Assembly (NCBI GenBank): GCA_012727545.1 | Contig: JAAYHA010000090.1 | Location: 1 to 32,282, forward strand | From: Synergistaceae bacterium | GTDB taxonomy: Bacteria > Synergistota > Synergistia > Synergistales > Synergistaceae | Length of the DNA: 32,282 bases | Reading direction: 5' to 3' | Shown: piece by piece, positions 27,687 to 30,795 of the stretch | Layout: every line of letters begins with the position of its first letter | Position numbering within the stretch: position 1 is the first letter of the stretch | Position numbers and translations under genes: made by a program | Notes under the pieces: generated by a model | Seen by the model: only the letters and a program-made list of their open reading frames with translations | What the model was told of the DNA's origin: nothing | Database searches by the model: none

Positions 27687-27715
27687 TTGACATTTAACTA
27701 AAAGGAGAGTATATA
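27687..27715 (+). promoter_or_regulatory. sigma70 promoter of serine operon: TTGACA-N17-TATATA
   Basis: Consensus -35 TTGACA 27687-27692, 17-nt spacer, -10 TATATA 27710-27715; expected start about 35 nt before the leader ORF. Confidence 0.8.
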
Positions 27716-27756
27716 TGTTAACCATTCAACGGGGACACAAGAAAGGAGCGCTTTGA

Positions 27757-27894
27757 ATGAGGAGACCAGCATATCTTGTTTTTAACGGCATATCGTCATC
27801 TTCTCTCTCTTCCGGCGTTTCTTCCTCATGCGGCGGCTCTGGTTGTCATTGCCGGTCCCGAAACGTGTACCCGATGAATAGAGAAAATAACTAA
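27757..27894 (+). CDS. 45-aa leader peptide rich in Ser/Gly/Cys (attenuator leader)
   Basis: ATG 27757 with RBS AAAGGAG at about 27743-27749. Translation MRRPAYLVFNGISSSSLSSGVSSSCGGSGCHCRSRNVYPMNRENN*; 11 Ser, 5 Gly, 3 Cys codons; followed by terminator/antiterminator. Confidence 0.8.
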   Translation: MRRPAYLVFNGISSSSLSSGVSSSCGGSGCHCRSRNVYPMNRENN

Positions 27895-27958
27895 ATTTTC
27901 TAGAACATCAAGGCGTTTCAGGGACCGGAGGAATTTCTTCCGGTCCCTTTTGTATTTA
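27815..27958 (+). promoter_or_regulatory. transcription attenuator: competing leader pairings upstream of serine biosynthesis genes
   Basis: Antiterminator CCGGTCCC-GAAACG (27852-27865) pairs with CGTTTC-A-GGGACCGG (27914-27928), 14 bp with one bulged A. Its 3' arm is also the 5' arm of the terminator. A second GGCGTTTC copy at 27814-27821 can pair with GAAACGT (27860-27866). Confidence 0.78.
27921..27953 (+). terminator. rho-independent terminator of the attenuator
   Basis: GGGACCGGAGGA-ATT-TCTTCCGGTCCC (12 bp with one G-U) followed by TTTTGT. Confidence 0.88.
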
Positions 27959-27994: not shown

Positions 27995-29140
27995 ATGAAC
28001 ACGAAATATCTGCTTACCCCAGGCCCGGTGGAACTGCCGGCAGAAGTACTGAGGGCTGGTGCACGTCCGCTTATAGGACACAGGTGCCCTGCTTTTTCAC
28101 AGCTCTTTACCGGGATCGAAAACAAGCTCCGGGAACTGTTAAAAAGCGAAGGACCGGTAATAATACTTCCCTCTTCCGGGACGGGAGCCCTTGAATGCAT
28201 GGCGGTCAATTTTCTTGAAAAGGGCGACAAATTTATTTCTATCTCATGCGGCGTTTTTGGCAACAGATTTCGTGAGATTGCACTTAGAACAGGTGCTGAA
28301 GGCATCAATATCGATGTTCAGTTCGGCGACGCTGTGACACCGGCGATCGCAGCGGAAGCAGTTAAAAACAATCCCGACTGTAAGGTTATGATGATAACCC
28401 AAAATGAAACATCAACAGGAGTTGTCAATCCCATCAAAGAAATAATAGCGGCAATTCCCGAAAAAGATCGCCCTCTCATATTGGTAGACGGGGTCAGTTC
28501 CGTCGGGGCAATGGAATGTTTTCCGCAGGAATGGGGTATCGATGCGATAGGCACTGCTTCTCAAAAAGGGCTGCTGACACCTCCGGGACTCGGCCTCGTA
28601 TGGCTTTCTGAAAAAGCATGGAATGCGCTTGAAGGAAAAACATGTCCCAGTTACAGCTATGACCTGAAACTCCACAGAAAAGACCTGGAGGCGAAATCCC
28701 CCGCAAACCCCTTTACTCCTCCGGTGTCCCTCTACTATGCCCTTGATGAGGCACTTAATGAGATTTTGGAAGTTGGAACAGAGTCCTGGTTCAAATCCAG
28801 AAAGAAGTACGCAGATGCACTGGCGGCCGGACTTGAAGCAATGGGATTCGATCTGTTGGTCAAGAGTCCGGAGGCGCGCTCACCGGGAGTTACAGCCTTC
28901 AGATATCCCGTAGGCGATACAGAAGCAGTTCGCAAAAAACTTCGCGCGATGGGAATAGAAACAGCGGGCGGACAGGGAAAACTTAAAGGAGAACTTATCA
29001 GGGCCGCACATTATAACAATTGGGGATGGCCCGAACTTTGCATCATTCTTGGTTCGCTCTACGCGGCCGCCGATATGGCTAAAGCCATGAAAAAAGACTT
29101 CCTGGCAGAAGCCTGGAATGTATGGAACAGGGAGGACTGA
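27995..29140 (+). CDS. class V aminotransferase (alanine-glyoxylate / serine-pyruvate family); probable phosphoserine or serine transaminase
   Basis: YLLTPGPVELPAEVL, SGTGALECMAVNFLEKGDKF, ILVDGVSSVGAMECFPQEWGIDAIGTASQKGLLTPPGLGLVWLS; directly upstream of serA. Confidence 0.93.
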   Translation: MNTKYLLTPGPVELPAEVLRAGARPLIGHRCPAFSQLFTGIENKLRELLKSEGPVIILPSSGTGALECMAVNFLEKGDKFISISCGVFGNRFREIALRTGAEGINIDVQFGDAVTPAIAAEAVKNNPDCKVMMITQNETSTGVVNPIKEIIAAIPEKDRPLILVDGVSSVGAMECFPQEWGIDAIGTASQKGLLTPPGLGLVWLSEKAWNALEGKTCPSYSYDLKLHRKDLEAKSPANPFTPPVSLYYALDEALNEILEVGTESWFKSRKKYADALAAGLEAMGFDLLVKSPEARSPGVTAFRYPVGDTEAVRKKLRAMGIETAGGQGKLKGELIRAAHYNNWGWPELCIILGSLYAAADMAKAMKKDFLAEAWNVWNRED

Positions 29141-30795
29141 TGGCGATGGCTGAAAATAAAAAATGGAAGGTACTGGTGGCCGAGACAGTTGGCGAGGCCG
29201 GACTTCAGATACTCAGGGATGCCCCTGACATTGAACTTATAGAAGAAGTTGGAATGTCACGCGAAAAACTGCTTAAAAAACTGCCCGAAATGGATGCAGT
29301 CCTAACCAGAAGCGGTACAAAGATGGACGAGGAAGCCCTTAACGCTGCTGTAAAATTAAAGGTAGTTGCCCGTGCAGGTGTCGGCGTCGACAATGTCAAT
29401 GTCCCTGTTGCGAGCCGCAAGGGAGTCGTGGTAATAAATGCACCTACCGGAAACACTCTTGCGGCAGCAGAGTTGACAATGGCTCTGATGCTTGGTCTCG
29501 TAAGAATGGTCCCCCAGGCATTCGGCTCACTCAAGAGCGGTGAATGGGACAGAAAAAGATTCTCAGGCCATCAGCTCAGCGGAAAGAAGGTACTCGTTCT
29601 TGGGCTTGGAAGGATAGGAGCTGCAGTTGCCCAACGCTGCCGTGCTTTTGGAATGGACGTGATGGCATACGATCCTTACACTCCCAAGAAAAAGGCCGAA
29701 TCACTCGGCATACCAATGAGGGAAGACCTTGCCGACGCGCTTTCCGTTGCTGACGTAGTTACCCTTCACATGCCGCTGACATCTGACACTACAAATCTTA
29801 TCGATGAAAAAATGCTGAAGGCATTTAAAAAGGGAGCGTATCTTATCAACTGTGCAAGAGGCGGCATAGTGGACGAAAAGGCTGCAGCTGATGCGGTAAG
29901 GGACGGAAGGCTTTCAGGGATAGCATTTGATGTCTATACTGCGGAACCTCTGTGTGAAGGCCACCCCTTTTTAGCCAAAGACATTGAGGACAGGATCGTT
30001 ATAACCCCGCACCTTGGAGCCAGTACTGAAGAGGCACAGACAGAGGTGGCAAAGATCGCTGCAGAGAACATGATAGCGGCACTGCGGGGAGAACCATATG
30101 AACATGCCGTCAATCTCCCCTTTCTGGAACAGAAACTCAACAAGGCCCAGAAGGCATTCCTGCAGCTTTCAAGGAAAATGGGAATACTCGGTGCAAAACT
30201 TGCGGAAACAGAGTGCGGAGCTGTCCATAGCTGCCACATTATGCTTCGCGGGGACATGTTCAATGAAGATGAACCAATGCCAAACAGGCTTTGTGCTTAC
30301 AGTATAGCTGTACTAAAAGGCCTTTTTGAGGTCAGCCGGGGTCCGGAAGTTTCATACATGCTTGCTCCTCTGCTTGCCAAGGACAGCGGTCTGACAGTGG
30401 AAGAGAGCATCGGAGATCCCAAAACATATAAAAACACTGTTGAGATAATCCTGGATGCCGAGAAATGCAAAGTGTCGCTTATAGGTACCATCACTGAAGA
30501 GGGCCGTATGCGTATCGTAAAGGTAAACGAATATTGGCTCGACTTTGTTCCCAACGGTAAGCTCATACTTTTCCAGAATCATGACAGGCCCGGAGTAATA
30601 GGAAAGATCGGAAATATACTTGGCGAAGCTAAGATCAACATTGCTAATTTTGCCCTTGGAAGAAAGGACAACAGCGGTCTTGCCCTAGGTGCGCTTGAGA
30701 TAGACAGCGACATTGACGAATCGATCAGGAAAAAACTGGAAAAGAGCGGGGACATGCTCTGGCTCACCCTAATAGATTTTACGGACGCTGAGTAG
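29140..30795 (+). CDS. serA: D-3-phosphoglycerate dehydrogenase with C-terminal ACT domain
   Basis: AVLTRSGTKMDEEALNAAVKLKVVARAGVGVDNVNVPVASRKGVVVINAPTGNTLAAAELTMALML, VLGLGRIGAAVAQR; ACT-type C-terminus LILFQNHDRPGVIGKIGNILGEAKINIANFALGRK. ATGA overlap with the aminotransferase stop. Confidence 0.97.
   Translation: MAMAENKKWKVLVAETVGEAGLQILRDAPDIELIEEVGMSREKLLKKLPEMDAVLTRSGTKMDEEALNAAVKLKVVARAGVGVDNVNVPVASRKGVVVINAPTGNTLAAAELTMALMLGLVRMVPQAFGSLKSGEWDRKRFSGHQLSGKKVLVLGLGRIGAAVAQRCRAFGMDVMAYDPYTPKKKAESLGIPMREDLADALSVADVVTLHMPLTSDTTNLIDEKMLKAFKKGAYLINCARGGIVDEKAAADAVRDGRLSGIAFDVYTAEPLCEGHPFLAKDIEDRIVITPHLGASTEEAQTEVAKIAAENMIAALRGEPYEHAVNLPFLEQKLNKAQKAFLQLSRKMGILGAKLAETECGAVHSCHIMLRGDMFNEDEPMPNRLCAYSIAVLKGLFEVSRGPEVSYMLAPLLAKDSGLTVEESIGDPKTYKNTVEIILDAEKCKVSLIGTITEEGRMRIVKVNEYWLDFVPNGKLILFQNHDRPGVIGKIGNILGEAKINIANFALGRKDNSGLALGALEIDSDIDESIRKKLEKSGDMLWLTLIDFTDAE

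Follow-up and report, generated by a model that had tools for sequence, protein, structure and literature searches.

A 32,282-nt contig of a Synergistaceae bacterium (this whole stretch of DNA is referred to as the window) contains a short open reading frame with a dense run of serine codons upstream of an operon that encodes a class-V aminotransferase and phosphoglycerate dehydrogenase (SerA). A first-pass annotation of this DNA had described the frame as a leader that codes for serine, glycine and cysteine together, using only UCN serine codons, and had suggested that it senses UCN-reading tRNA-Ser isoacceptors with possible integration of glycine and cysteine charging. The locus therefore raises the question of whether the frame is the leader peptide of an attenuator that controls serine synthesis and, if so, the charging of which tRNAs it would report. 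The aminotransferase is probably the serine-pathway transaminase, although it reached no NCBIfam equivalog, and SerA is encoded directly 3′ of it in 30 of the 30 related loci tested.

The leader and the elements around it

Codons 11–32 of the leader ORF occupy exactly positions 27787–27852 and read GISSSSLSSGVSSSCGGSGCHC. As originally described, Ser, Gly and Cys make up 18 of these 22 positions. Scanning all six frames of the window ranks this segment first among stretches of that length for the three residues, and the best count in an annotated-like CDS of the window is 10 of 22 (binomial P ∼1.5e-11). Eleven UCN serine codons had been assigned to the same interval, and all eleven are indeed UCN, but ten lie inside it and the eleventh (TCC) is Ser34, which falls outside those coordinates. 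The background for codon choice was taken from 26 CDS of the window, with 616 serine codons of which 70.1% are UCN and 29.9% AGY. Since 11 of 11 UCN gives p = 0.02 against this CDS background, the exclusive use of UCN is weak evidence when this leader is taken singly and becomes strong when the orthologues are included (see below).

Table 1 Features of the leader region and downstream operon in window coordinates
Feature	Position	Strand	Basis
Promoter: TTGACA (27687–27692), 17-nt spacer, TATATA (27710–27715)	27687–27715	+	Layout common to most orthologous leaders
Shine-Dalgarno AAAGGAG of leader ORF	27742–27748	+	Sequence; 8 nt 5′ of ATG
Leader peptide ORF, 45 aa, MRRPAYLVFNGISSSSLSSGVSSSCGGSGCHCRSRNVYPMNRENN	27757–27894	+	Ser-rich; matching ORFs in orthologous upstream regions
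Candidate control-codon run, codons 13–28: UCN Ser plus Gly20, Cys25, Gly26, Gly27	27793–27840	+	Stall simulation
Antiterminator arm A, CCGGTCCCGAAACG, inside leader ORF	27852–27865	+	Inverted repeats I7/I8
Arm B, CGTTTCAGGGACCGG; pairs with A (antiterminator) or, via its 3′ half, with C (terminator)	27914–27928	+	Inverted repeats, folding
Intrinsic terminator: 13-bp stem 27920–27948 and T-rich tail	27920–27956	+	Terminator scan; similar in nearly all orthologues
Class-V aminotransferase	27995–29140	+	Pfam PF00266
SerA, phosphoglycerate dehydrogenase	29122–30795	+	TIGR01327, 562.7 versus cut-off of 454 bits; Pfam PGDH_inter and ACT domains

Comparison of orthologues places a TTGACAT-N17/18-TATAA layout 5′ of most leaders. 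The promoter escaped a generic sigma-70 scan, as this accepts only T at position 6 of the −10 element. Between the promoter and the first gene lies a short ORF with start signals (27687–27894; translation predicted), and its UCN-rich codons 13–28, which are conserved, specify the end product of the SerA operon that they precede. A conserved intrinsic terminator separates the leader ORF from the first gene, its stem ending 46 nt before the aminotransferase start, and an antiterminator arm that excludes it is located just 3′ of the control codons, an arrangement that is not clear in f6/f10-type leaders. In the window leader arm A begins ∼22 nt past the last core Ser codon, and A:B complementarity beats 200 of 200 shuffles (z = −4.3). 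Inverted repeats and folding indicate that the A:B and B:C helices are mutually exclusive in their shared segment, with local folds of −32.6 kcal/mol for the antiterminator and −23.7 kcal/mol for the terminator. RNAalifold applied to a MAFFT alignment of the leaders recovers the terminator alone, since a single structure cannot accommodate both alternatives and group 1 has a bulged A. When the arm search was left unrestricted, the Ser codons themselves were paired with the terminator; limiting the search to the region past the run gave a cleaner result.

The operon, the promoter, the terminator and antiterminator, and conservation throughout the phylum (see below) support the earlier proposal that serine genes are here under leader-peptide control, and we consider it very probable that a ribosome-mediated transcription attenuator controls the aminotransferase–serA operon. 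Serine sensing by the leader is well supported by sequence comparison; the stalling and the direction of the response we infer. According to the proposed mechanism, scarcity of UCN-reading Ser-tRNA would cause the ribosome to stall in the Ser run of the leader, with its leading edge just short of arm A, and A would pair with B once B has been transcribed. With B held by A no terminator would form and RNA polymerase would go on to transcribe the operon. With ample charged tRNA, the ribosome would be passing over A at the time B and C are transcribed, B:C would form and transcription would stop. The Gly and Cys codons in the run specify amino acids made from serine and may extend sensing to all of the serine family.

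The geometry of stalling was modelled by placing a ribosome at each codon, protecting 12 nt past the first A-site base, which is the protection generally known from toeprints. For ribosomes whose A site holds one of codons 11–28, the antiterminator probability in the simulation is 0.85–1.00 before the 3′ arm of the terminator is made; the value at Gly29 is 0.85, falls to 0.61 at Cys30 and is zero at Cys32 and all later codons. Hence, this model admits Ser13–Ser28, Gly20, Gly26, Gly27 and Cys25 as control codons, leaves Cys30 doubtful and excludes Cys32 as a positive control codon, since it is too near the antiterminator arm. Folding predicts readthrough for the untranslated leader RNA, in which this leader differs from that of the E. 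coli trp operon. In the window's genus subgroup the leader stop codon is 27 nt beyond arm A. A ribosome at the stop would thus leave A uncovered, and the switch must rely on timing. This feature and the predicted readthrough of untranslated RNA count against the attenuator.

The position of the stop codon shifts within the genus. In three leaders (L006–L008) GTG TAA directly follows arm A, while in the window (27866–27894) and four others (L004, L005, L009 and L010) GTG is followed by TAC or TGC and eight or more extra codons. Among these leaders, it is only in L006–L008 that a ribosome halted at the stop would lie over arm A.

Conservation across Synergistota

Aminotransferase orthologues were gathered over the phylum, and 65 with upstream sequence lie within the order. 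About 60 of the 65, from 26 genera, have a Ser-rich leader ORF upstream, usually followed by a terminator. At least six Ser in 14 residues are encoded in 45 of 64 real upstream regions and in 1.9% of dinucleotide shuffles, and at least eight Ser in 14 residues in 27 of 64 real regions and in no shuffles. No Ser-rich leader ORF was present at three more distant orthologues from outside the order, and at five loci within it (L033, L034, L051, L067 and L068) neither a Ser-rich leader ORF nor an Rfam riboswitch was recognized. The potential for antitermination also recurs. In 24 of 50 leaders, where 2.5 are expected, the best complement to the 5′ arm of the terminator in the region past the run beats shuffles at p ≤ 0.05 (mean z = −2.0), and the 50 leaders most often have arm A starting 22 nt past their last core Ser codon, which is the spacing that a stalled ribosome needs. 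Among 14 divergent leaders, A:B pairs from the same leader are stronger than cross-pairs (p = 1e-4). In the f6/f10-type leaders simple A:B pairing is not above shuffles; their geometry may therefore differ, and they may use extra hairpins.

An Rfam search of the window and 14 related loci gave no match, and for these loci both a T-box riboswitch and the serC RNA motif (RF00517) are thereby ruled out. The same result makes an undescribed RNA formally possible, with the Ser-rich frame arising by chance in an untranslated leader under protein or riboswitch control. We regard this as exceedingly improbable, given that Ser-rich ORFs are far more frequent in orthologues than in shuffles, that Ser and Gly are conserved at the codon level (see below) and that the spacing from the Ser run to arm A recurs.

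The sequence and length of the leader and the 3′ part of its ORF vary widely, while the Ser count and its position relative to arm A persist. This pattern also bears on a further explanation, that the product is a functional Ser/Gly/Cys-rich small peptide acting in trans or on the ribosome tunnel and does not report tRNA charging. The recurrence of a GIG/GMG/GTG-plus-Ser-run motif across families would fit such a peptide, but the pattern of variation speaks against it, as does the fact that the classic promoter, terminator and antiterminator suffice without a product, and we consider it very unlikely.

Genome G156 has two copies of the aminotransferase (L045 and L062), both preceded by a separate Ser-rich leader. 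The leader ATG in genera g10 and g11 (L040, L044 and L047) is about 9–12 nt past the −10 box, so that, unlike in the window's genus, the leader mRNA looks leaderless, with no room for a Shine-Dalgarno sequence.

Serine codon choice and the other residues of the run

UCN and AGY codons number 354 and 44, respectively, in 54 distinct leaders compared with 1150 and 328 in the downstream genes, corresponding to UCN shares of 89% and 78% and to 44 AGY codons observed against 90 expected (Fisher 2.8e-7, an optimistic value because related leaders are not fully independent). The UCN excess holds separately for T-ending (p = 0.026) and C-ending codons (p = 3e-10), and AGY is lower than in the leader's own gene in 39 of the 54 (sign test p = 0.0015). 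A strictly UCN-only sensor would exclude AGY from orthologous leaders, which is not seen in these 54: AGY is wholly absent from 21 and present in 33, and the UCN preference is therefore a bias and not a rule. Within the window's genus L010 alone has AGY in the leader core. In a 99% complete genus-mate, the tRNA-Ser species for UCN (GGA, CGA and TGA; three genes) are separate from that for AGY (GCT; one gene). Ribosomes of Bacillus subtilis starved for serine are slowed at UCN and at Cys codons and not at AGY (PMC3862929). The strong bias over 54 leaders, the separate tRNAs and the B. subtilis precedent thus support sensing of UCN isoacceptors as a strong bias, while the exclusion of AGY suggested by the single leader does not extend to its orthologues.

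Control by more than one residue is known from other leaders, with thr reading Thr and Ile, and ilv reading Ile, Val and Leu. Gly and Cys account for 28.8% and 10.4% of the non-Ser residues of leader cores, compared with 6.4% and 2.7% in 433 other Ser-dense windows from the same loci, an enrichment of about fourfold over other Ser-dense frames; proline makes up 0.7% in leader cores and 9.4% in the control windows. When only the run and the four residues upstream of it are counted and values are averaged within genera, 23 of 26 genera exceed the control for Gly (p = 3e-5) and 18 of 26 do so for Cys (p = 4e-4). A lack of Gly/Cys enrichment in orthologous leaders had been named beforehand as grounds for rejecting a combined sensor, and over the 26 genera taken together the enrichment is present. 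The two residues differ in how they are maintained. Between related leaders, the synonymous share of changes is 0.49 for Gly and 0.53 for Ser compared with 0.21 for other, mostly fourfold residues, and all four Gly codons occur, their third bases varying as freely as those of Ser. For Cys, which has two codons only, 12% of changes are synonymous, and its positions are not conserved beyond ordinary residues in the same comparison. Thus, both residues are enriched, with conservation at the amino-acid level for Gly and not for Cys: what is kept at Gly positions is either the amino acid itself or the pair GG, the third base being free, and Cys drifts. On these sequence comparisons Gly sensing is plausible and the case for Cys sensing is weaker.

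Trp, likewise made from serine, provides about 4–5% of non-Ser residues in the run and 1.3% in controls (58 loci). Local hairpins in many families pair Ser UCC/UCU codons with GGA AGG of Gly/Arg codons just past the run (L083–L092; 27814–27853 in the window), and such a Ser/Gly-codon hairpin is possibly an RNA-polymerase pause hairpin.

The same predicted pairing of UCC/UCU with GGA/AGG right past the run in many leaders would suit an attenuator that reads serine only, in which Gly codons serve GGN-UCC pairing in a pause or 1:2-type hairpin and Cys residues are neutral neighbours; the absence of amino-acid-level conservation at Cys, and the single base change that converts TCN to TGY in the case of TCT and TCC, also fit. 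We give this reading somewhat short of an even chance. It does not account for the enrichment of Gly before and within the run, where Gly makes up 28% of the non-Ser residues in 26 genera, nothing past the last core Ser being counted. The use of all four Gly codons, with third bases as free as for Ser, and a Cys content of just 2.7% in other Ser-dense frames of the same loci also speak against it. We tentatively suggest, at less than even confidence, a phylum-wide attenuator that reads the whole serine family, mainly through UCN tRNA-Ser and additionally through tRNA-Gly, tRNA-Cys and perhaps tRNA-Trp.

Relation to known systems and significance

The trp, his, thr, leu and ilv attenuators of enterobacteria are ribosome-mediated and control amino-acid operons (PMC1183508, PMC9413887). 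The leader described here shares with them a run of product codons in a leader ORF, an adjoining antiterminator arm, an intrinsic terminator and a biosynthetic operon, and differs in its serine control codons, its occurrence in Synergistota, its preference for UCN over AGY, the Gly and Cys codons mixed in and the lack of a clear hairpin by which untranslated RNA would be terminated. In actinobacterial cys operons (PMC1262725), too, a leader-peptide ORF containing Cys codons is placed ahead of a gene for a serine-derived amino acid, but the Cys runs there are near the stop and no terminator is recognizable, whereas the present leader is dominated by Ser and is followed by a terminator. The serine T-box of Firmicutes serine genes (PMC8002221) serves the same pathway and responds to the same signal, Ser-tRNA charging, but binds tRNA directly, needs no leader translation and is not found here. 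The serC motif RF00517 of alpha-proteobacteria (PMC1273637) is also placed before serC–serA operons, yet consists of two stems by which the ribosome-binding site would be masked and involves no leader peptide. In B. subtilis sinR (PMC3862929), UCN and not AGY codons report serine starvation and Cys codons slow ribosomes too, but the effect is exerted through translation of a full gene without leader or terminator.

A survey in 2010 listed leader peptides from Proteobacteria, Actinobacteria and, newly, Firmicutes only (PMC2965389). A full-text literature search that covered few subscription papers found neither a published serine-codon attenuator nor a description of leader-peptide attenuation in Synergistota. 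The type of switch is thus classic, and its serine-codon version is without an earlier report in the literature searched.

If the proposal is correct, serine joins the amino acids sensed by leader-peptide attenuation, and this form of control extends to Synergistota. The leaders would also constitute a natural, many-times-repeated test of the idea of selective charging, in which evolution has preferred UCN, the codon type responsive to serine starvation in B. subtilis, over AGY. Should Gly and Cys be read as well, one short ORF would integrate the whole output of a branched pathway, and serine synthesis would be turned on whenever serine or an amino acid derived from it becomes scarce.
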